The notes beneath the pieces are model-generated. The model did no database searches and had not been told where the DNA came from. It was given only the letters and a program-made list of their open reading frames with translations. A program made the position numbers and the translations under genes. A stretch of 47,389 nucleotides of DNA from a virus, in the IMG/VR virus record IMGVR_UViG_3300045950_000330, positions 1-47,389 of that record, one strand, 5' to 3'. This document shows, in pieces, positions 17,442-46,404 of the stretch (positions are counted from its first letter, which is position 1; the number at the start of each line of letters is the position of its first letter).

Positions 17442-18944
17442 TCAAACCGCGATCTGGCCGGACGGCGTTTCGTATTGCAGGAACGCCGTGATATTGGCCG
17501 CGAATACGCGCAACTGATTCACCACATCGACCGGCAGATAGGCGTTGAGACGGGTTGCGTTGTTGGCGTCGCGCTCGACTGCGACATATTGCGCGAACAG
17601 ATCCGGCTTTTCGGTCACGCCGAGCGCAACGAGATCGTAATAGGCGTGAATGATCGTATTGCGTACGGACTTGGGAGTCGCGATCTCGGACAGATTGAAC
17701 GGATTGTCGTCGGCGAGCGCCTGGCGCGCGTGACGGTTCGACACCGCCGCGCGCATGTAGCGCGTGAGAAACATCAATTGCGCCATCGTTTCCACGTCGC
17801 GGAACGTGGCGTCGGGTACGCCGGCATCCGTCTGCCGATAGGTCGTGACGACGCGATCGAGGATCACGCGGCCGTCCACCGTCACCTTATAGGCCGACAT
17901 GCCGTCCACATAGAGCGCCTGCCGGTCGTCGATATCCCACCACATCGAGCGCGCGCGCGGCGGCTGGACGCCGAGCAGCTGCAGCGTTTGCAGCGGGCGG
18001 GACAACTCCGGCGCATCGGACAAATGCGCGGCGGCGACGGCGCCGAGCGCGGCGGCCCATTCCCAAACCGGCGAGGGCGAAGATTGCGAGGCCATGATCG
18101 AGACGTGCCGATCGTTGCGGGCGTTGCCGAGCGTGACCTGCGCGGACAGATTGCCGAAATTCGCGGTGAAGTAGTGGCCGTAAAGCTGCCTGATCGGCGA
18201 CCAGCGACCGGACACGTCGTCCAGAAAATCGCGAATCGCATTGAGCGAATTTGCGTCGGCGTAGGGAGCCGCGACGAAATCGTACTCGTCGTCGCCGAGA
18301 TTGGCGAGGCCGGTCGCGAGCGCCGGGACGCCGGTGCCGCCGGACATGGCGACAACCGCAACCTTGCCGGCGAGCGCGTTCGGCTCATCGGTCGCAATCC
18401 ACAGATCGATACCGTTGCCGAGCGCGCCGACATGCCGCGCGGTGACGGTCACGATATGCTCGGAACCTGCGCCGCCGACGGCGGCCGTCGCCGGCAGCGT
18501 CGCGGCGTTGATCGCGGCGGCGAGCGCCGAGGCGACCGTGGCCGCCGTGTCGGCGGCGTTGACCTGAATGGTGAGACGTCGCCCCATGACGTGCAACACG
18601 CCCGCGCCGGTGACGCCCGGCGCGGTGACGGTCAGGGTGCCGGTTGCGGCGTTGCCGGCCGGGTCGGCAAGCGGCAAGGCCCAGATCGGCTGAAACGGCG
18701 CATTGCGGCGGGCGATCCGATACATATGCGCGAGCATCGATCCGGAGCCGAAAAGCGCATCGGCTTCCATTTCCGACTGGATCGGGCCGATCGGCTCATC
18801 GGCCGTCGCCGCGCCGGCGGCGATCTTCTGACCGACCAGCAAGAGGCGCGACTGCCCCTCATACGGCGTGCCGCCGGAATTGATCTCGGCATAGAAGAAC
18901 GGGACAAGGATATTGCCGGGAATGGCATTGAACGACACCGACAT
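17442..18944 (-). CDS. Contractile tail sheath protein (Mu gpL/gp39-like)
   Basis: A 500-residue tail sheath subunit. MSVSFNAIPGNILVPFFYAEINSGG and SRLLLVGQKIAAG are the family's N-terminal arm. The middle holds an Ala/Thr-rich beta insertion domain (LTVTAPGVTGAGVLHVMGRRLTIQV and onwards). The C-terminal domain shows VTTYRQTDAGVPDATFRDVETMAQLMFLTRYMRAAV and the closing helices up to FAANITAFLQYETPSGQIAV. Presence of a sheath shows the phage is a contractile-tailed (myovirus morphology) type. AGGAG lies just upstream of the ATG. Confidence 0.94.
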   Translation of the reverse strand: MSVSFNAIPGNILVPFFYAEINSGGTPYEGQSRLLLVGQKIAAGAATADEPIGPIQSEMEADALFGSGSMLAHMYRIARRNAPFQPIWALPLADPAGNAATGTLTVTAPGVTGAGVLHVMGRRLTIQVNAADTAATVASALAAAINAATLPATAAVGGAGSEHIVTVTARHVGALGNGIDLWIATDEPNALAGKVAVVAMSGGTGVPALATGLANLGDDEYDFVAAPYADANSLNAIRDFLDDVSGRWSPIRQLYGHYFTANFGNLSAQVTLGNARNDRHVSIMASQSSPSPVWEWAAALGAVAAAHLSDAPELSRPLQTLQLLGVQPPRARSMWWDIDDRQALYVDGMSAYKVTVDGRVILDRVVTTYRQTDAGVPDATFRDVETMAQLMFLTRYMRAAVSNRHARQALADDNPFNLSEIATPKSVRNTIIHAYYDLVALGVTEKPDLFAQYVAVERDANNATRLNAYLPVDVVNQLRVFAANITAFLQYETPSGQIAV

Positions 18945-20823: not shown

Positions 20824-20856
20824 GGAAACGAAACGGCCGGCGCGGGCGCCGGCCGT
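20824..20856 (-). terminator. Terminator-like hairpin after the capsid gene
   Basis: On the minus strand, a perfect ten-base stem (ACGGCCGGCG with CGCCGGCCGT, loop CCCG) is followed by TTCGTTTCC. It lies in the 86-base gap after the capsid stop. The weak U-tract suggests a partial terminator or an mRNA 3' stabiliser. Its place recalls the Mu-gpT downstream-element RNA described near Mu-like capsid genes, but identity was not tested. Confidence 0.55.
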
Positions 20857-24447: not shown

Positions 24448-24657
24448 TCAGTCGCGACAATGCTCGGCATAAGTGACGCGCGGCAAAACGGAGGATGGCG
24501 ACACTTCGGCGAGCATATCGGCGAGCGTTGCTCGCATTTCCTCAAGCGAGCGAAATTCAGTCTCGCGCGCATCCGGCCCGGCGCCGAATTTGACTCGCTT
24601 GGCACCCGTGGCGATCGCCGCCTTGAGTGCGTCGATATCGGCTTGCGTGTAGGCCAT
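24448..24657 (-). CDS. Head-tail joining protein gpW family
   Basis: A 69-residue protein: MAYTQADIDALKAAIATGAKRVKFG, then TEFRSLEEMRATLADMLAEV. This matches the lambda gpW family, which stabilises DNA in the head and gives the site for tail attachment. ATG 24657 is preceded by GGAG at a nine-base spacing. Position between terminase and portal is as in lambda. Confidence 0.85.
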   Translation of the reverse strand: MAYTQADIDALKAAIATGAKRVKFGAGPDARETEFRSLEEMRATLADMLAEVSPSSVLPRVTYAEHCRD

Positions 24658-25153: not shown

Positions 25154-25282
25154 TCAAGCTGGCAGCGAGCCTTTCGGTTTGCGCGGCTTGCGCGGCTTTT
25201 TAGCCGGAGCCGCCGGCTTGAGATATGCGCGCGCAAACCAGCCGGCGATAAGGCCGAGCACCAATGCGGTAATTGTCCACAT
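25154..25282 (-). CDS. Tiny membrane protein with Lys/Pro-rich tail
   Basis: A 42-residue frame (ATG 25282) with one hydrophobic segment (MWTITALVLGLIAGWFARAYL) and a basic tail (KPAAPAKKPRKPRKPKG). GGAG lies nine bases upstream of this ATG. An in-frame ATG at 25297 would add five residues. It follows a terminator directly, so it would be the first gene after that control point. Role unknown; small single-span phage proteins near terminase genes can be holin-like or packaging-associated. Confidence 0.5.
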   Translation of the reverse strand: MWTITALVLGLIAGWFARAYLKPAAPAKKPRKPRKPKGSLPA

Positions 25283-25305
25283 AATCCATTGCTCCATCCA
25301 TCGAG

Positions 25306-25348
25306 AAAAAGAAAACGCGCGGGCCGGCCACTCAGCCGACGCCGCGCG
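25306..25348 (-). terminator. Intrinsic terminator inside the late operon
   Basis: On the minus strand CGCGCGG (25348-25342) pairs with CCGCGCG (25322-25316) around a 19-base loop that itself can pair, followed by TTTTCTTTTT. A U-tract this good after a GC stem is a strong intrinsic terminator. It lies between terminase and the head genes, all on one strand, so something must let polymerase through for head genes to be made. Confidence 0.75.
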
Positions 25349-25352
25349 CTGT

Positions 25353-25500
25353 GTCATGTCGCCCATGACCACGCGGGACTCGTTGGCTCTTGCGCTTCAC
25401 CTTACCGCACGGCGGTTAAAGGCTTCGCCTGCCCGGCCGGTACGACAGCGGCCTTCACTCCTCCGGCGCGTTACTCAACGCTACGCTTACAATCCGTTTC
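25353..25500 (-). ncRNA. Candidate structured RNA upstream of the internal terminator
   Basis: Between the terL stop and the terminator, about 150 bases on the minus strand contain a run of hairpins: GCGTT/AACGC with a GAGT loop (25481-25468), GGCCG/CGGCC (25453-25435), AGGC/GCCT with a GAA loop (25430-25420), ACCGC/GCGGT with a CGT loop (25416-25404), and GTCATG/CATGAC (25369-25353). No protein frame with family features covers it. The CCGCG between the last two hairpins and the terminator could pair with the terminator's 5' arm, an attenuator-like option. No known RNA family was recognised. A leader RNA, a polymerase-binding anti-termination RNA or a packaging RNA are all possible. Confidence 0.45.
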
Positions 25501-25529
25501 GACGCGGCGATCGCTGATCGGATCGAACA

Positions 25530-27671
25530 TCATCGCCACAACCATCCCCCGGTTTCGCGGCCGAGCCATCCGCCGGCGCCGGTTTCTTTCACCGGCACCA
25601 GCGTCTCAGCGGCAGGCCCAACGGGTGGGGCACAACCCCGATCTGTGGCCGGAGCGGAGTCGGTGGGCACGGAGTCGATGGGAGCGACATCGCCGGACCC
25701 CGACTCCGTCTCCGGCCGATCCGATGCAGCGGAGCCATCTGCATCGGAAGATGTAGACGGCGAAAACGTTGCCGGCATCGCAGAACGTATCTGCACCGCG
25801 AGCGGACGCGGCGCGAAAAGATCGCCTTGCTGCAAGAGCGGCGCCGCGCGGTCGCGCGCGAGCAAGCGCCATTCCTCATCGGTCATGCGCGAGAGGCCGA
25901 GGTGATCGGCAAGCGCCATGTTGTAGATGCGGCAATCGAGGAAATGGTTTTCCTCTTTGCCCCGGATCGCCCAAGCCTTCGCAACCCGGCCGCGCGTGCG
26001 CACCTCGGCGAGATATTCCGCCGTGACTTGGCGGAAATACACCTCATCGAGCCACTTGCCGAAATGGCAAAAGCCCGGCGGATCGGTTTCGCGGCCGGCG
26101 GTTTTACCCTCGCGGCGCAAATCCTCATACCAGTGGCCTTTCAGCGACCATGTGCCGACAGGCCAAACGCTCGCGCCGCCTTGCAGCTTGCGGCCGGCGA
26201 GATCGATATCGACAAGGCTCGGCGTGCCGAGCGCAGGCCGCGACCAGCCATCAACACCTTTCAGCGCATAGGCGTTGTGGCGAGTGCGGCACCATTCATA
26301 GACGACATGCGAACGATAACCTGAGTCAACACCGAACGCATCGACGCGGCGGCGGCCGCCGAAGGCGTCGGGATATTCCCGATCGTACACCTCGGCGAGT
26401 TTCAGGAAGGCGCCGCCGTGCGGATCGGTCGTGTCGCCTTCGAGCACATGCGTGTCGATCACCCACGACTCGCGATTCGGCGCATAGGCGACGATCTCGA
26501 CATAGATGCCGCGCATCTGCACGTCCGCCGCGCCGACCAGCATCAGGCCGCGCGGCGGGATATGGCCGCGCCGATAATCCTCGCGACGTTCCAGCAAGCG
26601 AACGTGATCAGGCGCGTCGCCCTTCATCTCGTAGGCTTCGCCGAGCGTCAAATTGTAGAACGCCTTGAGCTTCGACGGATCGCTTTGCGCATCGAGCCAT
26701 CGCTTCGCGATCGTATCCCACGGAACGAATGGCGACGACAGCGCGTCGAAATGATAGGATCGATGGCGGCCGGGGCCGGGCGCCGTCGCGATCCAGCGGC
26801 CGCCGCGCACGAGCGCGACCTTCTCGTGCGCTTCGATCACGACGCCGCAGCACGGCGCGACGTAATGCGCGTTATACGGATAGGTTTCGTTGAACCGGAA
26901 ATTCGGCCCGAAGCGAAACGGAAACTCGTCGCCGCAACCGGGACAGCGCACATGCCACAGGCGCTGATCGCCGGCCTTGTAGCGTTCTGTAATATAGCAC
27001 GCGCCATCGATCGTCGGCGTCGATATCGCCGTGTCCTTCCAGTCGCCGGCGGCGAGAAACGCCTCGCGGCGCGCCTCGATCATCGTGTGCGGCGAGCCTT
27101 GCCCGTCCAGATCGGCCGGATACTCGCTCGCCTCGTCGCGGATGATCCGCTTTTTCGTTTTCGAGCGAAGGTCGGCGGCCGAATTGGCGATCGCGAGCGA
27201 GAGCGACCCGCCGGGATAGCGCTTGTTATACGCCGTCGATCCCTCGCCGGAGCGCGCGACTTGCGGATAGACCTTCGCTTTCAATGCCGGCGTTTGCTCG
27301 ATCGCGGGATTGAGCTTGTCGCGCAAAAAGTCGTCAAGCGCGCTATCGGTAGGCTGCACAAGCAGAATGCCGCCGACAGGATCGACGTCGATCGAATAAC
27401 CGACGCCGGCAATCGCCATCACGGTGAAGCCGGTCTGCGCCGACTTTTGCACAACTTGCTCATTGACCGGAGAGTCCGGTCCCATGTTGTCAAGCGGCTC
27501 GCAAATGTACGGCGTCAACGCCGCATCCCATTTATCGCCGGCGCGCGGGCCGTCCGGTACGATGAGGTTGCGCGCCGCCCATTGCGACGGAGTCAATTGT
27601 TCCGGCGGCTCGATTAGATCGATAAAGCCGCGCGCGACGATGGCGAGGGTGGTGTGACGAAACTCAAGCAT
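25530..27671 (-). CDS. Terminase large subunit (lambda gpA family)
   Basis: A 713-residue protein. LTPSQWAARNLIVPDGPRAGDKWDAALTPYICEPLDNMGPDSPVNEQVVQKSAQTGFTVMAIAGVGYSID is the family start, with the Walker-A-like QKSAQTGFT. IIRDEASEYPADLDGQG holds the acidic Walker B region. WHVRCPGCGDEFPF with a later CCG forms the zinc-ribbon insert. VDAFGVDSGYRSHVVYEWCR begins the nuclease domain. It packages DNA with ATP and cuts at cos or pac. ATG 27671 overlaps the TerS stop; an in-frame ATG at 27686 would add five residues. The last 90 residues are a Ser/Asp/Pro-rich low-complexity tail ending in GWLGRETGGWLWR, absent from lambda gpA. Confidence 0.93.
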   Translation of the reverse strand: MLEFRHTTLAIVARGFIDLIEPPEQLTPSQWAARNLIVPDGPRAGDKWDAALTPYICEPLDNMGPDSPVNEQVVQKSAQTGFTVMAIAGVGYSIDVDPVGGILLVQPTDSALDDFLRDKLNPAIEQTPALKAKVYPQVARSGEGSTAYNKRYPGGSLSLAIANSAADLRSKTKKRIIRDEASEYPADLDGQGSPHTMIEARREAFLAAGDWKDTAISTPTIDGACYITERYKAGDQRLWHVRCPGCGDEFPFRFGPNFRFNETYPYNAHYVAPCCGVVIEAHEKVALVRGGRWIATAPGPGRHRSYHFDALSSPFVPWDTIAKRWLDAQSDPSKLKAFYNLTLGEAYEMKGDAPDHVRLLERREDYRRGHIPPRGLMLVGAADVQMRGIYVEIVAYAPNRESWVIDTHVLEGDTTDPHGGAFLKLAEVYDREYPDAFGGRRRVDAFGVDSGYRSHVVYEWCRTRHNAYALKGVDGWSRPALGTPSLVDIDLAGRKLQGGASVWPVGTWSLKGHWYEDLRREGKTAGRETDPPGFCHFGKWLDEVYFRQVTAEYLAEVRTRGRVAKAWAIRGKEENHFLDCRIYNMALADHLGLSRMTDEEWRLLARDRAAPLLQQGDLFAPRPLAVQIRSAMPATFSPSTSSDADGSAASDRPETESGSGDVAPIDSVPTDSAPATDRGCAPPVGPAAETLVPVKETGAGGWLGRETGGWLWR

Positions 27672-28359
27672 GATCCGGCGCGACATGCGCGGCCGGATCG
27701 AGATCGCCCCAAAGCATAATCACGGGTTCATCAATCGGCAGCGCGGCGTCATCCTTTCCTTGCGTGTCGGCCACAAGCTTTTGCAGCGCGGCCACGATCG
27801 CAACGCGCGTCGCGCGTGCGGATTTTTTCAGGTAGGCGCGGGCGCCGGCGGCACCCTCGCGGGCGACTGCAGTGGCGCACTCATCGGCGCCATGCGGCAA
27901 ACGCTCGATCGCGGCAACGATCGCCTCGGCGCATTTCGCAACATCATCGGCGAGCTTCGCCACCGGCACAAGCTCGCCGAGCCTTTGACGCACCTCAATC
28001 TCGGCGAGATCGGCGCGATACTTTTTCTCGCGCGCCTGCGCGTCGCGATAACTCGGATCGCCGGTAAAATTGCCTGACGGCGGCGCGTCATCGTCGCCGT
28101 CAAAGAACGACTTGGTTTCGGCACCAAGCTCGCGCGCGGCGTCCCCTACCTCGTTTCGCGCCAAATTGTACTGCGCGAGGTTGACAAGCTTTGTCCCGCG
28201 TGGGCCAGGACGCGTCTCGATCTTACCGGCGCCCTCAAGCTTGGCGACATGCTCGGCGATCGTCTGGCGCGAGACATTCTTGATCCGCGCGATCTCGGCG
28301 ATCGGAAGCCATAGGCCATCATCGGGCGCCGGCGGCGCCGCACCGTCCGGCGCGATCAT
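27664..28359 (-). CDS. Terminase small subunit-like (Nu1-type HTH)
   Basis: A 231-residue protein. Residues about 17-65 form a winged helix-turn-helix (WLPIAEIARIKNVSRQTIAEHVAKLEGAGKIETRPGPRGTKLVN) as in Nu1-like DNA-recognition subunits. Residues about 105-200 form a charged helical region (SYRDAQAREKKYRADLAEIEVRQRLGELVPVAKLADDVAKCAEAIVAAIERLP), the oligomerisation part common to lambda-type TerS and Mu-type homologues. It lies immediately before and overlaps the large subunit. No good Shine-Dalgarno precedes its ATG; a tandem repeat occupies that site. Confidence 0.82.
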   Translation of the reverse strand: MIAPDGAAPPAPDDGLWLPIAEIARIKNVSRQTIAEHVAKLEGAGKIETRPGPRGTKLVNLAQYNLARNEVGDAARELGAETKSFFDGDDDAPPSGNFTGDPSYRDAQAREKKYRADLAEIEVRQRLGELVPVAKLADDVAKCAEAIVAAIERLPHGADECATAVAREGAAGARAYLKKSARATRVAIVAALQKLVADTQGKDDAALPIDEPVIMLWGDLDPAAHVAPDHA

Positions 28360-33392: not shown

Positions 33393-34613
33393 GAAATCGA
33401 GGCCCGCCGGCGCAAAGCGCACGGCGACGCGGCGGCCGGCGCGCGCATGACGGGCGGCGGCGCGGCGCAAGGCCATTTGCGTCGCGAAAGGATCGGAATC
33501 GCCGTCGCCGAGCAGGATCAATTCGGCGACCGTCTCCGGCACCGGCATTGCCGGTGAATCCATGTCCGGTGCGGGGCCGGGCACGCGGCGCGGGCGGCCG
33601 GTTTCGGTTCTCAGGTCCGGATGCGGCACCGTTTCGAGCGCCTTGCCTGCGAGGTTGCCGAGATCGACGCCGCAGCGAAACGCCGTCTTTTCCAGATTCC
33701 GGCCGGCGGCCTTCAAGGCCGTAAAAACGGCCAGAACCGTCTCGATCCCCTCGCCGGCGATCAGACGCGCGGCCCGATCGATCGGGCATCCGCCGAGATC
33801 GATAAAGCCGCCCTTTTTGCTGCCGCGCACCTTTTTGCTCGGCGCCGCCGCGCCGATCGTGTGATCGAGAATGACGGCCTTGCCCTTCGGGCCGGCCGGA
33901 TCGAGCCAGGTAAAATGCAGCCCGGCAAAGCGGCCGGACGGCCCGATAATCGCGGCGAGCATGGCCGGCCCGCGATGCAACAGCACCGGCTCGAACTCGC
34001 GGCCATCCGCAAACAACGGCGCATCCGGCATGAACCGCAATTGCGCATTGTCGGGAGCATCGAGGCCGCGCCCACGCAAGTAATCCTCGACCGGCGATCC
34101 GCGCCACGGCGCCGCGCGGCGCCAAAAATCGTAAAGCCGCCTTCGCTCGCGCTCGCGATAGTCGTGCGCCTGGCGCTCGCGATCGCGCTCAAGGCGCCAG
34201 CCGGCACGCCAAGCGGCGGCAAGCGCGCCTTGCAGGCGATTGGGCGGCACTTCGGTATCGCCCCGGCGAAACGCCGCCGCTCCCTCGCGCTTGGCGCTCA
34301 AAGGCGTATCCTCGGCCGCGCGTGCGCCGCCGAGGCGTTCGATCGCCGCCATGAAATCGATGCCCTCGCGCCTCATCACAAGCTTGATCACGTCGCCGCC
34401 GTCGTCGCAGACCGCGCAAACCCATTTCTCGGCGCCGCACTCGAAACGGCCGGCCGACTTTGACGCGGAATTGCGCGAGCAAATCGGGCACGGTCCCACA
34501 TGCGTGAAGCCGCCGCCGCGACGGGCGCGCAGGCGCACCCATTCGCCGGCGATCACATGCACCGGATTGCGCGCTTTCAGATCGGCAAGATCGGACTCGC
34601 TCAGCCGCCGCAT
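33354..34613 (-). CDS. Zinc-finger/Toprim DNA primase
   Basis: A 419-residue primase. The N-terminus has a CHC2-like zinc site: PCPICSRN (C42, C45) and FECGAEKWVCAVCDDGGDVIKLVM (C66, C69), with FMAAIERLGG after it. A basic helical segment (WRLERDRERQAHDYRERERRRLYDFW) follows. The Toprim part shows LIAGEGIETVLAVFTALKAAG (catalytic Glu) and ELILLGDGDSDPFATQMALRRAAARHARAGRRVAVRFAPAGLDFNDLL (DGD motif). It makes RNA primers. It probably works with the helicase encoded just downstream as a split P4 alpha-like pair. It overlaps the methyltransferase stop. Confidence 0.9.
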   Translation of the reverse strand: MRRLSESDLADLKARNPVHVIAGEWVRLRARRGGGFTHVGPCPICSRNSASKSAGRFECGAEKWVCAVCDDGGDVIKLVMRREGIDFMAAIERLGGARAAEDTPLSAKREGAAAFRRGDTEVPPNRLQGALAAAWRAGWRLERDRERQAHDYRERERRRLYDFWRRAAPWRGSPVEDYLRGRGLDAPDNAQLRFMPDAPLFADGREFEPVLLHRGPAMLAAIIGPSGRFAGLHFTWLDPAGPKGKAVILDHTIGAAAPSKKVRGSKKGGFIDLGGCPIDRAARLIAGEGIETVLAVFTALKAAGRNLEKTAFRCGVDLGNLAGKALETVPHPDLRTETGRPRRVPGPAPDMDSPAMPVPETVAELILLGDGDSDPFATQMALRRAAARHARAGRRVAVRFAPAGLDFNDLLQANGECAS

Positions 34614-35866
34614 GCGACCCCCTCGGCCGCCGCGATGCGCGACAAAATCCAGCGCATCACCGGCACCGCCATCGAATTGCCGTAAGCCTTGTATTGCGGC
34701 CCGTCCGGAGGCGGATCGAAACGCTCCATCGCCTCGACCGACGAAAATCCGAGATAGGCGGCCATCGCCGAGCGATCGGCGGCGTCAAGAAAGACCGCGC
34801 CGCCATAGCCGGGAATGCACGTATGATCGTCGGGAAAACCCTGCAGACGCGCGCATTCGCGCACGGTCAGACGGCGAACGCCGGACGGCGTGGACACCGC
34901 CGGCGGAATGCCGCCGTTGGCGTGCGAGGATGCATAACCGCCGGCGCGGAGCGTCGGCGACTGATCGACGATCGCATCGCCGCCATAATCTTTCGACGAA
35001 AACGCGATCAGCGTCTCGGTGGCAAAATCGAGCCGCACACCGGCTTTTGCGGTCAGCGTGGTCGCAACGTCGATCGGGCCGCCGCTATTGTTGCCGCCGT
35101 AGGCGCTCGAATCTAAAACGGCTCCGAACCCGCAGCCGCCATCAACTCTCGCATCAATCGCTCCGGCAATTTCTTGCCCCGTCTTGCGGCGCGGCGGAGA
35201 ATCCCCCTGCACGCTTTTGCGCTCAAAAAGTATCGCGACGGGATCGCCCCCACCTCCAAGACTTGCGACAACGAACACACGCTTGCGGCGTTGGGCCAAT
35301 CCGAAATATTGAGCGTCGAAAACCCGCCAAGCCGCCCGTGCCCACGGCCCGGCAACCATACCTGCACGCGACCATGCACCCCCCGTATCGACAGGCAGGG
35401 CATCGTCTGCGCCGACAAGTCCGCCCAGAAAACACCCGAATGCGTTATCGACGGTGTTGAGAATTCCGGGGACGTTTTCCCAGACGAGCCAAACAGATCG
35501 GCCGCCGGCGCGGGCGCGCGCTTTCCTGACCGCATGCAAGAACCTCAAAAATTCCAGCGTGAGATTGCCGCGCGCATCGGCGAGGGATCGCCTTTTGCCC
35601 GCGAACGAAAAAGCCTGACAGGGCGTGCCGGCGACGATCAAATCGGGGAAAGGAATGCCGAGCCGACGCAAATGCCGCACGCGCAAGGCCGTCATGTCGC
35701 CCCACAACAGATGCGGCGCCGGCCCGCGCCGCGCATCGCGACAGCCAAACCGATGCGCCAGCACCGCGCGCGGAAAACCATCGATCTCGCTCGCCAGTCG
35801 CCAATCGACGAACGGCGCCGCCATTTCCGGCGCGCCGATACCGCTGCAAAAGGTTGCGCCGATCAC
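34601..35866 (-). CDS. DNA cytosine-5 methyltransferase
   Basis: A 421-residue C5-methyltransferase with all main motifs in order: I FCSGIG (residues 6-11), IV GTPCQAFSFAG with catalytic Cys83, VI WENVPG (129-134), VIII AQRRKRVFVV (191-200), a variable target region with FSSKDYGGDAIVDQSPTLRAGG, IX LTVRECARLQGFPDD, and X YKAYGNSMAVPVMRWI. It transfers methyl from SAM to cytosine C5. No restriction nuclease is next to it, so it is an orphan, likely for protection of phage DNA or control. GTG at 35866 is the start because it overlaps the previous TGA (GTGA) and puts motif I at the usual distance. Confidence 0.93.
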   Translation of the reverse strand: MIGATFCSGIGAPEMAAPFVDWRLASEIDGFPRAVLAHRFGCRDARRGPAPHLLWGDMTALRVRHLRRLGIPFPDLIVAGTPCQAFSFAGKRRSLADARGNLTLEFLRFLHAVRKARARAGGRSVWLVWENVPGILNTVDNAFGCFLGGLVGADDALPVDTGGAWSRAGMVAGPWARAAWRVFDAQYFGLAQRRKRVFVVASLGGGGDPVAILFERKSVQGDSPPRRKTGQEIAGAIDARVDGGCGFGAVLDSSAYGGNNSGGPIDVATTLTAKAGVRLDFATETLIAFSSKDYGGDAIVDQSPTLRAGGYASSHANGGIPPAVSTPSGVRRLTVRECARLQGFPDDHTCIPGYGGAVFLDAADRSAMAAYLGFSSVEAMERFDPPPDGPQYKAYGNSMAVPVMRWILSRIAAAEGVACGG

Positions 35867-36183
35867 TCCAACTCCCCCTGCCCATCGACCGCATCGGCCG
35901 CCGCCATCTCCGCCGCACGGCGGTCGGCTTCGGCGATCGCGCACAAGGCGGCCTTGATCTCGGCGCTGTTACCGACTCGATCAATTGTCTTACCGAGCGC
36001 TGACCATATCCGCTCACGGCGTCGCATCAGCGCCGCGAGCGCGGCGTTGCCTTCCTTGGCATGCAAGCCGGCCCAAATCTCGGCGCGCGCGCGCTCGCCC
36101 TCGATCGCGAGCCACATATCATTGAAGGTGATTTTTTCGGCCGGGGACGCCCCAGCCGGAGGGGTTGTGGGGTTTTCAGTCAT
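35863..36183 (-). CDS. Unknown small helical protein
   Basis: A 106-residue protein, mostly helical and charged: ITFNDMWLAIEGERARAEIWAGLHAKEGNAALAALMRRRERIWSALGKTIDRVGNSAEIKAALCAIAEADRRAAEM. It shares ATGA with the upstream DUF550-type gene and GTGA with the methyltransferase, so it is translated as part of the early operon. No family recognised. Confidence 0.65.
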   Translation of the reverse strand: MTENPTTPPAGASPAEKITFNDMWLAIEGERARAEIWAGLHAKEGNAALAALMRRRERIWSALGKTIDRVGNSAEIKAALCAIAEADRRAAEMAAADAVDGQGELE

Positions 36184-38159: not shown

Positions 38160-39587
38160 CTAGAGTCCGCCGAACAACGGCCCGGCGTCGATTGCAGCGT
38201 CTTTCGTCTTTTGCTTGATCGTCTCGCGCGCGCGTTCCTCCGGACCCGCGAGACAAAGCCGCATGCGGCGGCGGATATCCTCTTGATATTCCGCCTCACG
38301 CTCGATCAGGATCGCGCGGCGGCCCTCGCGAAACGCGGCCTCGCCGGTTGTCCCGGTGCCAGCGAAGCAATCAAGCACCGTCTGCCCCGGCGCCGTGATC
38401 AGCCGCACGAGATATTGAATGAGATCAACACGCTTGATTGTCGGATGGCTTGAACCGAGACGATCATCGGCATCCGCCTTTGCGGAGTAATAGAAGCGCG
38501 CAGCAGAGCCGGCATCGCCGAAACCCGGATCGCGCTGCTCACGACTATCAACGCCGTTTCCGTAGATCGCACCAGACCGAAACGCGCCAAGTGATGCCTG
38601 TCCGCCAGTGCTCACACTGTCCGGAAACAGCGACTGCACCTCGGCCGAGCCGTCATGCGTGATATTGGCCGGCCAGCGGCCGGCAGCCTCGCGCTCAGAT
38701 GACGTTGACCCGGTAAATGATCCAACGGTCGATCCCGATCCGCGATGCAATCCGCCGGCGCGATACTCGATCGGCGCGCCGATCCGCGTCGCATCGATAT
38801 TGATCGCGCCGGTGCCGTAGCGCTCAACGTTGTCGGCGATCGACAATCCCTCGGCGAGCGGCTTGCGCGCCATCACGATCGGCTCGAAAGCCGGCTTGAG
38901 CGCCGATCCCCATCCCGCCCATTGCCGCGCCAGCGGATGCCGGAACGGCGCGGATCGCGCCATATCCTCTCCGGTGTCACGATAAACCCACACTTTCCGG
39001 CCGCCGCGCTCAATCTCCTCGCAAAGCCGCTTCTCATAATCGAGCGCGATATTGTGCGACTTCGGAAAGCCGGTGCCGAACAGCCACGCCATCAAGCCGC
39101 CGGCATTCGATTCCTCGACACAGCGGAAGAATTGCGCGCGCTGCTCATCCGACAGCGAGCCGATAAAATTCTCGATATGCGTGTCGCTTTCGATCAGATC
39201 GAGGATGCAATCGCGCGTCTCAAAGCCGGCGGCCTCGATCGCGACTTGCATCAGGCCGACATTGCGCGAGGCCGAAAACGCCAACAGATGCCCGCCGGGC
39301 TTCAAGACACGCAGCGCGCGCGCCCATGTCTCCGGACGAAATGCGATATCGCCGCCATCCCATTGCTTGCCCATGAAGCCGCGCGAGGAGCGCGCAAAAA
39401 GGCCGTCCGTTCCCTCTTTCGCCGGAGCCGCATTCTCAGCCCCGAACCGCTTGACGATCGATGTGAGGTGATAGGGCGGATCGGTCAAAACCGCATCAAC
39501 CGACTCCGGCTCAAGCACATCCATAACAGTGAGGCAATCGCCGCAATAAAGCTGCACCTTGCCATCAAGAAACGTCTCAGGCGTCAT
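38160..39587 (-). CDS. DNA N6-adenine/N4-cytosine methyltransferase (DPPY type)
   Basis: A 475-residue methyltransferase. Motif IV DPPY is at residues 36-39 (DAVLTDPPYHLTS) and the SAM-binding FAGTGTTGEAAF motif is near residue 408, so the order is that of beta-class enzymes (catalytic first). Between them lie WARALRVLKPGGHLLAFSASRNVGLM and a large target-recognition region. It methylates A-N6 or C-N4 in a site not predictable here. It overlaps the previous gene by 11 bases. No cognate nuclease is present. Confidence 0.9.
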   Translation of the reverse strand: MTPETFLDGKVQLYCGDCLTVMDVLEPESVDAVLTDPPYHLTSIVKRFGAENAAPAKEGTDGLFARSSRGFMGKQWDGGDIAFRPETWARALRVLKPGGHLLAFSASRNVGLMQVAIEAAGFETRDCILDLIESDTHIENFIGSLSDEQRAQFFRCVEESNAGGLMAWLFGTGFPKSHNIALDYEKRLCEEIERGGRKVWVYRDTGEDMARSAPFRHPLARQWAGWGSALKPAFEPIVMARKPLAEGLSIADNVERYGTGAINIDATRIGAPIEYRAGGLHRGSGSTVGSFTGSTSSEREAAGRWPANITHDGSAEVQSLFPDSVSTGGQASLGAFRSGAIYGNGVDSREQRDPGFGDAGSAARFYYSAKADADDRLGSSHPTIKRVDLIQYLVRLITAPGQTVLDCFAGTGTTGEAAFREGRRAILIEREAEYQEDIRRRMRLCLAGPEERARETIKQKTKDAAIDAGPLFGGL

Positions 39588-39768
39588 CGTCCGCAGCCTC
39601 CAAAGCGTTGACAACGAAAAGCGCACCGTGATCGGCGAGATAGGCCGGCGTTCCGGCCGGCACATAGAAGGCGACGCCGGGAAACGGAGAGATCACCGTG
39701 ATCTCGCCACGCTGCACCATGCCGCGATCGATCCACGGCGCACGGGCGAACCGCATGGGCGCGCTCAT
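39577..39768 (-). CDS. Small unknown early protein
   Basis: A 63-residue protein: MSAPMRFARAPWIDRGMVQRGEITVISPFPGVAFYVPAGTPAYLADHGALFVVNALEAADDDA. Beta-rich with an acidic tail. ATGA overlap with the winged-helix gene and overlap with the methyltransferase start support translation. Function unknown. Confidence 0.55.
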   Translation of the reverse strand: MSAPMRFARAPWIDRGMVQRGEITVISPFPGVAFYVPAGTPAYLADHGALFVVNALEAADDDA

Positions 39769-44609: not shown

Positions 44610-44813
44610 ATGAGGCCGGCGGCGACATATCCCCCCGCAAGCGCGATTTTCCCGCGCGAGGATCGGCTGGCGCTCGCCCGCGCCCTTGCCATCCGCGCCG
44701 CGCGCGAGGATCATGCGCGGGCCATTGCCGAGCTTGCCGATCCCGCCCATGAAACGCGCCGCGATTTACGCCCGATTCTCGACAGACCTACAAAGCGAGC
44801 GCTCGATCGCTGA
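44610..44813 (+). CDS. Small helical protein before the recombinase
   Basis: A 67-residue frame: MRPAATYPPASAIFPREDRLALARALAIRAAREDHARAIAELADPAHETRRDLRPILDRPTKRALDR. A helical Ala/Arg/Glu pattern and an overlap of 65 bases with the recombinase start are plausible for a coupled gene. No family recognised; spurious frame remains possible. Confidence 0.4.
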   Translation: MRPAATYPPASAIFPREDRLALARALAIRAAREDHARAIAELADPAHETRRDLRPILDRPTKRALDR

Positions 44814-46371
44814 TCAGGTCGCCTTGTGCCGCGACGTATGCGCGCGCGAGGGATTTGCGATCGCGCATGTGTTCGAGGATCGCGCGATCTCCGGCGCATC
44901 GATCGTCAACCGCACCGGCTTTCAAGCGATGATGCGCGCAGCCGAGGATCGCGCCTTCGACGTGCTGGTCGCCGAGGATATCGATCGCATCTCGCGCGAT
45001 CAGGCCGACTTTCACAACGCCCGCAAACGGCTCGAATTTCTCGGCATCGCGATCCATACCGCCACCGGCGCCGTCTCGCGCCTCGACGGCTCGTTGCGCG
45101 CGATCATGAGCGAAATGTTCCTCGAAAATCTCGCGCTGCACGTCCGGCGCGGCATGGCCGGCGTCATCCGCGAGGGCCGGCATGCCGGCGGGCGCGCTTA
45201 CGGATACCGGCCGATCGCCGGCAAGCCGGGCGAGCTTGAGATCGCCGAAGATGAGGCCGAGATCGTGCGGCGCATTTTTGCAGAGTATATCGCCGGCAAG
45301 ACGCCGCGCGAGATCGCCGCCGGATTGAACCGCGACGGCATTGCGGCGCCGCGCGGGCGACAATGGAACGCCTCGACGATCAACGGCAATCGGGCGCGCG
45401 GCAACGGCATCCTGTTCAGCGAAATCTATGCCGGCCGCATCGTCTGGAACCGGCTGCGCATGGTGAAAGACCCGGCGACGGGCAAGCGAGTCCCGCGCAT
45501 CAACGCGCGCGAGCGGCACATAATCGCAGAGGCGCCGCATCTGCGGATCGTCGACGAGGAAACGTGGCAGCGCGCGCAACAGATCAAGGGCGCGCGGCTT
45601 AACCTCACGCCGCAGCAACAGCGGCGCCCAAAACGATTCCTGTCCGGCCTGATCAAATGCGGATCATGCGGCGCTGGCATGGTGAGTGTCGGCAAAGATC
45701 GCGGCGGCATGCGGCTGCAATGCTCGGCCGTGCGCGAAAGCGGAACGTGCGGCAATACCCGCAAGCTCGGCCGGGCGCGCGTGGAAAGCTTTGTGATCGA
45801 GCTATTGCGCAAAACGCTCGCCGAACCCGACACCCTCGCCGAATATGTCACAACCTACAACGCCGAGCGCCGACGCCTCGCGCGCGAGGCCGGAAAGGAC
45901 CGCGCGCGCTCGGCCCGCCGCCTCGGCGAGATCGAGCGCGAGATCGCGCGCGCCGTTGACGCAATCCTGAAAGGCCGCGTGTCCGCCGATACGCTCGGCG
46001 ATTCCGTCCTCAATCTTGAGCGCGAGCGCGATCGGCTCAAGGCCGAGCTTGCCGCGATGGATGCGGCGCCCAACGTGATCACCCTGCATCCGGCGGCCGT
46101 CGATCGCTACCGAGCGGACCTTGGCGCCCTTGCCAAGATCATCGCCGGCGAGGGCGCCGGCGACGCGGAAAATGCCGACCTGATCGCAACCGTCCGGACC
46201 CTCGTTGCGGCCGTGATCGTGCATGCCCGGCCGGGCGAGCGCGGCTTTGAGGTGGAAATCAGGACTCGCCTGTCAGAATTGACCGGCGCCCCGCCCCTAT
46301 CGCGGGCGGTTTGTCGGAAGGGATTAGTGGTAGCGGAGGACGGATTCGAACCGCCGACACAAGGATTATGA
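44749..46371 (+). CDS. Large serine recombinase (phage integrase)
   Basis: A 540-residue large serine integrase. The resolvase domain begins MKRAAIYARFSTDLQSERSIADQ with catalytic Ser11, followed by EDRAISGASIVNRTGFQAMMRAA, DVLVAEDIDRISRDQAD and the long E-helix region. The recombinase domain contains GRAYGYRPI, EAEIVRRIFAEYIAGKTPREIAAGLNRDGI and WNASTINGNRARGNGIL. The zinc ribbon is CGSCGAGM with C-x-GTCGN further on, then a coiled coil (RRLGEIEREIARAVDAILKGRVSADTLGDSVLNLERERDRLKAEL). The last residues (AEDGFEPPTQGL) are read from the tRNA-Met antisense strand, so the 3' end of the gene is part of the attachment site. Confidence 0.93.
   Translation: MKRAAIYARFSTDLQSERSIADQVALCRDVCAREGFAIAHVFEDRAISGASIVNRTGFQAMMRAAEDRAFDVLVAEDIDRISRDQADFHNARKRLEFLGIAIHTATGAVSRLDGSLRAIMSEMFLENLALHVRRGMAGVIREGRHAGGRAYGYRPIAGKPGELEIAEDEAEIVRRIFAEYIAGKTPREIAAGLNRDGIAAPRGRQWNASTINGNRARGNGILFSEIYAGRIVWNRLRMVKDPATGKRVPRINARERHIIAEAPHLRIVDEETWQRAQQIKGARLNLTPQQQRRPKRFLSGLIKCGSCGAGMVSVGKDRGGMRLQCSAVRESGTCGNTRKLGRARVESFVIELLRKTLAEPDTLAEYVTTYNAERRRLAREAGKDRARSARRLGEIEREIARAVDAILKGRVSADTLGDSVLNLERERDRLKAELAAMDAAPNVITLHPAAVDRYRADLGALAKIIAGEGAGDAENADLIATVRTLVAAVIVHARPGERGFEVEIRTRLSELTGAPPLSRAVCRKGLVVAEDGFEPPTQGL
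46328..46371. other. Recombinase/tRNA overlap, right attachment region
   Basis: The last 44 bases of the recombinase gene are also the 3' half of tRNA-Met on the other strand, from the CCA end through the T arm to the anticodon region. This marks the phage-host junction on the right. The crossover point cannot be fixed without the left end. Confidence 0.75.
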
Positions 46372-46404
46372 TTCCTCTGCTCTAACCAGCTGAGCTACTC
46401 CGCC
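46328..46404 (-). tRNA. tRNA-Met (CAT), elongator type
   Basis: A 77-base tRNA including CCA. Acceptor GGCGGAG pairs with CTCCGCT (G-U at the first pair), D stem GCTC/GAGC, anticodon stem GAGGA/TCCTT with loop ATCATAA and anticodon CAT, T arm GGCGG-TTCGAAT-CCGTC (one mismatch-tolerant pair). It could be read as tRNA-Ile2 with lysidine, but the overall sequence suits elongator Met. It is the integration target; the phage supplies the 3' half after integration. Confidence 0.88.

Follow-up and report, generated by a model that had tools for sequence, protein, structure and literature searches.

A conserved structured RNA element precedes a predicted intrinsic terminator at the terminase–head gene junction of alphaproteobacterial phages

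IMG/VR virus record IMGVR_UViG_3300045950_000330, the 47,389-base stretch of DNA that was analyzed as a whole and is called the window below, is a temperate phage with a contractile tail whose minus strand carries the replication, packaging, head, and tail genes. Between the gene for the terminase large subunit (terL) and the head genes lies a structured RNA element at 25353-25470 on the minus strand, followed by a predicted intrinsic terminator. It is near certain that the element is a real conserved structured RNA. It is a previously undescribed RNA family, for which we found 17 distinct members with pairwise identities of 0.49 to 0.96, all in alphaproteobacterial phages and prophages. We observe this RNA, its structure, its position, and its association with terminators, and we tentatively propose that it is a cis-acting read-through (antitermination) RNA, similar in action to HK022 put or Bacillus EAR and structurally unrelated to them.

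The features of the junction, in order of transcription, are as follows.

25530-27686, minus strand: terminase large subunit gene (GpA type), the upstream gene (PHROG 15, E = 7e-209; Pfam GpA_ATPase and GpA_nuclease)
25471-25533, minus strand: possible open reading frame (ORF) of 20 amino acids that overlaps the terL stop (ATGA) and terminates exactly at the start of P1; a candidate from sequence only
25353-25470, minus strand: conserved structured RNA element with helices P1, P2, P3, and P4 (covariance models R1 and R2 and covariation)
25462-25470, minus strand: 5' arm of P1, partner 25378-25372
25435-25453, minus strand: P2 hairpin, GGCCG-CUGUCGUAC-CGGCC
25385-25433, minus strand: P3 with a long insert specific to the window (GGC ... 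GCC)
25372-25378, minus strand: 3' arm of P1
25353-25369, minus strand: P4 hairpin, GUCAU-GGGCGAC-AUGAC
25305-25349, minus strand: predicted intrinsic terminator, a GC-rich hairpin (-28.7 kcal/mol) and a U-rich tail
25154-25282, minus strand: predicted membrane protein of 42 amino acids, the first ORF past the terminator (from sequence and translation; no PHROG or Pfam match)
24448-24654, minus strand: head-tail adaptor Ad1 gene, the first recognizable downstream head gene (PHROG 2545, E = 5e-13)

The end of terL (25530) and the start of the next ORF (25282) are thus separated by 247 bases without a recognized gene, and the noncoding stretch that the initial annotation had placed on the transcribed strand does lie there. 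The consensus element spans 82 positions, in which P1 surrounds P2 and P3 and is followed after a few nucleotides by P4. P1 consists of nine pairs, two of which are missing from its 3' arm in the window, and RNAalifold proposes extending it by two further pairs (GU/AC). P2 has five pairs and the loop CUUUCGUAC, and P4 has five pairs and the loop GGGCGAC. The three pairs of P3 enclose a loop that ranges from a few nucleotides in compact members to about 50 nt in the window, where the long insert is the source of extra hairpins. The initial description of five hairpins followed by a terminator was essentially right, except that P1 is a long-range helix enclosing P2 and P3 rather than a separate hairpin. 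The sequences UCGUA in the P2 loop and GGGCGAC in the P4 loop are invariant in 17 of 17 members, which suggests that these unpaired loops form a binding surface. UCGU of the P2 loop and GCGA of the P4 loop may conceivably make contact; neither loop ever varies.

The single-sequence folding energy of the 247 nt is no better than that of shuffled sequences on the minus strand (z = -0.97, 38 of 200 shuffles as good) and is not unusual on the plus strand (z = +0.10), so the hairpins seen in the single sequence would not stand alone. Model R1, a covariance model built from nine homologs with the window left out, matched the window at 25470-25353 on the minus strand with 67.8 bits (E = 3.6e-9), while the next-best place reached 16 bits. 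Model R2 scores the window element at 73.6 bits, and nonmembers in approximately 1 Mb of related loci score below about 23 bits. In a nine-sequence MAFFT alignment (A2) made without knowledge of the structure, 99% of cells pair, compared to 34 to 47% with slid partners, and 32 cells are changed on both sides. The initial annotation had specified in advance that a lack of compensatory changes at homologous junctions would speak against the structure. Such two-sided changes are present at 20 of 22 pairs (80 cells) in the 17-member alignment A6, which was fitted to the model and hence leans towards it; they affect all four helices and all nine pairs of P1. None of 500 shuffles reached this covariation, and 98.9% of the A6 cells are paired, compared to 30 to 41% with slid partners. 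Furthermore, RNAalifold independently proposed identical helices.

At the gathering threshold, Rfam gave no match for the window or for ten member loci, and at E values up to 10 the element region gave only chance matches below the gathering score, in line with the initial view that no known RNA family was present. The literature searched, which largely excluded subscription papers, contained no description of this RNA.

Members were collected by several routes. Homologs of terL yielded three junctions with a visibly similar noncoding stretch (L005, L007, and L008), and a pattern search for the P2 hairpin yielded further members in IMG/VR. Searches with the head-tail adaptor and a ParA-like protein, which are independent of the RNA sequence, added more, including the divergent L063, L093, L125, and L162. 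One member (L039) comes from a bacterial genome, G653. The terL relatives of the window are found in Bradyrhizobium, Rhodopseudomonas, Afipia, and Xanthobacteraceae genomes, and pattern and model searches of approximately 1,580 genomes around the Afipia and Bradyrhizobium relatives found members beyond chance only in G004 and G653; a 397-genome model search among these was a shallow first look whose empty result means little. No members came up when one of the elements was compared by BLAST with 50,697 phage and 72,556 plasmid records. Loci L187 to L190 and other pattern matches outside the family were dismissed as chance. Within the sequences searched, the family is rare.

The terminator of the window consists of a hairpin at 25349-25316 and the tail TTTTCTTTTTC at 25315-25305. 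It outperforms every one of 60 shuffled versions of the region, no compact hairpin-plus-U site on the minus strand is stronger, and it pairs in context with a probability of about 0.95 to 1.0. At the sequence level, this bears out the strong intrinsic-type terminator noted initially. A simple consensus terminator scan did not list it. In 13 of 17 members, the space from the element to the following start codon holds a strong hairpin (about -27 to -36 kcal/mol) with a U-rich tail. This hairpin outscores every one of 60 regional shuffles in 10 members, and in 11 it ends 20 to 33 nt before that start codon. The hairpins vary in sequence among members and keep their position, with a spacing from P4 of 0 to about 107 nt. 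Folding in context predicts that the terminator forms in all 13 (pairing probability of at least 0.75 at the outermost pair, mostly 0.95 to 1.0), and P1 or P4 is not predicted to be stable in every member. Nine of 10 junctions carrying the element have such a terminator, compared to 2 of 17 element-free junctions longer than 100 nt that reach the same score; L023, a second copy of L007, is included as a carrier, and the members are mutually related, so these counts are not independent. A second candidate terminator in the window, a perfect GC-rich hairpin at 20833-20856 on the minus strand followed by TTCGTTTC, lies directly after the capsid gene.

In most members terL comes first, with a ParA-like gene or small ORF after it in some; the element and the terminator follow, and next comes the adaptor gene or a small accessory one. 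In L014, L016, and L031, the element is instead found upstream of a neck-terS-terL block, in the same orientation as the late genes, and the terL-adaptor junction of L014 measures 4 to 10 nt. Wherever late genes are visible, the element is co-oriented with them. P1 starts 0 to 20 nt past the upstream stop codon in 12 of 17 members; in the window and L093, this stop codon ends a short ORF of putative coding status. A sigma70-like promoter scan 5' of P1 gave a summed score of 100, against 94.3 ± 3.4 for shuffled sequences, of which 10 of 200 scored as high. This is no clear signal for this promoter type, from which alphaproteobacterial or phage promoters may differ. Because P1 follows upstream stop codons and no clear promoter signal precedes it, the element is most likely co-transcribed with its operon. 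Among 48 junctions without the element, 31 are 100 nt or shorter, mostly 1 to 11 nt; most relatives keep the junction gapless, and the initial observation that the stretch interrupts an otherwise gapless operon holds.

The terL-adaptor junction is a hot spot at which accessory genes insert. In relatives without the RNA (L045 to L058), terL and the adaptor are often up to 2.3 kb apart, and one accessory gene common in these phages after terL and before the head genes is a small one for a ParA/MinD-like ATPase (L002, L004, L007, L008, L012, L019, L022, and others). In several relatives, an 18-bp palindrome, TTGTWTCGTACGATACAA, which is absent from the window and looks like an operator by its sequence, sits past the terL stop and before the ParA-like gene begins. 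It was found at L002:7050, L004:7139, L012:1359, L046:1939, L047:643, L050:873, L056:1051, L058:1633, and L068:2299, and in L068 it sits just before the RNA element. The palindrome and the P2 loop of the RNA have TTTCGTAC in common, perhaps by chance. In L016, the element lies directly 3' of a C-5 cytosine methyltransferase gene. A type III toxin-antitoxin RNA was considered for the combination of RNA, terminator, and gene order and was rejected, as there are no repeats and no toxin gene.

We propose that the element probably decides whether the head and tail genes are switched on. RNA polymerase leaving terL would transcribe the element, which would fold with P1 around P2 and P3, followed by P4, perhaps with a contact between the P2 and P4 loops. 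The folded RNA would act on the elongating polymerase, directly or via a phage or host factor, and the modified polymerase would pass the terminator at 25349-25305 and transcribe the head and tail genes. Polymerases with an unformed element or a missing partner, such as those of stray transcription in a lysogen, would be stopped at the terminator. There is little room for a promoter between the terminator and the following start codon, and the next gene should therefore need read-through. A swap test indicated that an element has no pairing advantage with its own terminator over terminators taken from other members; this and the variable spacing fit an RNA that changes the polymerase rather than one that refolds the terminator. 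We also count in favor of read-through the terminator-like hairpin after the capsid gene and the alternative position of the element before neck-terS-terL. The put-like antitermination RNA suggested by the initial annotation is thus the best reading of the evidence, held as a possibility somewhat short of probable, and the suggested likeness does not extend to homology.

Several points weigh against read-through. No clear terminator follows the element in L016, L031, L039, and L162. We infer the activity of the terminator, its relief by the element, and the mode of that relief, and a contact between the element and RNA polymerase or a factor is our proposal. Only 17 members were found and the majority of related phages lack the element, which is therefore not essential to this late-operon plan. 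Ordinary small RNAs (sRNAs) also have 3' ends set by intrinsic terminators, and a trans-acting phage sRNA would look much alike in sequence. Such an sRNA would end at the terminator, be produced either with the operon transcript or by a promoter within the upstream gene, and direct its invariant loops at host or phage RNAs or proteins, with late transcription getting past the terminator by other antitermination. A compact folded RNA with a terminator at its 3' end resembles a moron unit or an sRNA, a cargo cassette could well vary in presence and position as the element does, and the invariant loops could serve as seed regions. However, there is no clear promoter signal 5' of P1, P1 closely follows a stop codon (0 to 20 nt in 12 of 17), an sRNA would need the terminator that four members do without, and the element is co-oriented with the visible late genes; we consider an sRNA rather unlikely.

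The junction-type fold with its invariant loops also resembles an aptamer, and with a terminator 0 to 107 nt behind it in 13 members it could be a riboswitch-like attenuator, in which sensing of a metabolite or phage protein decides termination before the head genes. An attenuator was among the options named initially; its classical form, with mutually exclusive terminator and antiterminator pairing, is not supported by the swap test, in which no such pairing was found, and the terminator is predicted to form in all 13. As the spacing to the terminator is also highly variable and the downstream genes are structural rather than metabolic, we judge a ligand- or protein-responsive attenuator unlikely. 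An element for mRNA processing or stability, which would protect the 3' end of the terL transcript or set the terL:head ratio by means of a partly leaky terminator and no active antitermination, appears improbable. Stable helices at the 3' end of a gene, between genes needed in very different amounts (terminase and head), would suit this role, but two strictly conserved unpaired loops and a junction exceed what a stability hairpin needs, a terminator would reduce head relative to terminase expression rather than raise it, and in some members the element stands before neck-terS-terL. Chance folding of GC-rich spacer DNA would agree with the single-sequence energies and is refuted by the covariation and the 67.8-bit match of a model built without the window, which leaves it a negligible probability.

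Other genes of the window include primases, terS, portal, and a fused protease/capsid, together with the following.

17442-18944: tail sheath gene
44686-46371: large serine integrase gene

A tRNA-Met gene at 46328-46404 on the minus strand lies beside the integrase gene near the end of the record and is possibly linked to the integration site. Two ORFs on the minus strand, 34601-35944 and 38160-39665, match DNA methyltransferase families.

The element is of a size that suits testing in a plasmid reporter. If it does promote read-through, it could explain how head and tail genes are silenced and then switched on in a group of alphaproteobacterial prophages, and it could be used to bring about terminator read-through in such bacteria. 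If it is instead an sRNA, it would still be a family not described before, backed by a strong structural model.

One close functional parallel is put RNA, which suppresses downstream terminators in cis via the zinc-binding domain of the RNA polymerase beta' subunit. HK022 putL and putR are each two stem-loops in a V shape of about 70 to 80 nt, and put acts in cis in a temperate phage transcript, where polymerase passes terminators and downstream phage genes depend on it (PMC9378689). The element described here is likewise an RNA in a temperate phage transcript, for which read-through in cis is proposed. Unlike put, it combines a three-helix junction (P1 to P3) with P4 and has other conserved loops, and its place is among the late genes, following terL or an accessory gene. 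A search of the HK022 genome with R2 gave no match, and by its structure the element is not a put homolog. EAR, from the exopolysaccharide (biofilm) operons of Bacillus, one of the Firmicutes, lies inside a long operon. It is reported to mediate processive antitermination without a dedicated protein, as cited in PMC8955417. Unlike EAR, the element matches no Rfam family in the window or ten member loci. In the conAn system of pLS20-type conjugation operons, conAn2 RNA enables polymerase to read past terminators along a long operon, so that stray transcription is kept apart from the intended kind (PMC8955417). Our proposal is similar in that an RNA would mediate terminator passage in an operon while stray transcription is blocked. 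Lambdoid morons are sporadic insertions between late genes that carry a terminator, encode proteins, and have their own promoter. The element shares the sporadic insertion between late genes and the terminator, but its conserved part is an RNA and no promoter is evident. To our knowledge, very few RNAs override terminators by acting alone on RNA polymerase. It is doubtful, yet conceivable, that the element joins put and EAR as a third class of RNA-only processive antiterminator. This class would be phage-borne and alphaproteobacterial and would gate late genes via the host RNA polymerase in cis as an RNA-plus-terminator cassette placeable at different points of the late cluster.
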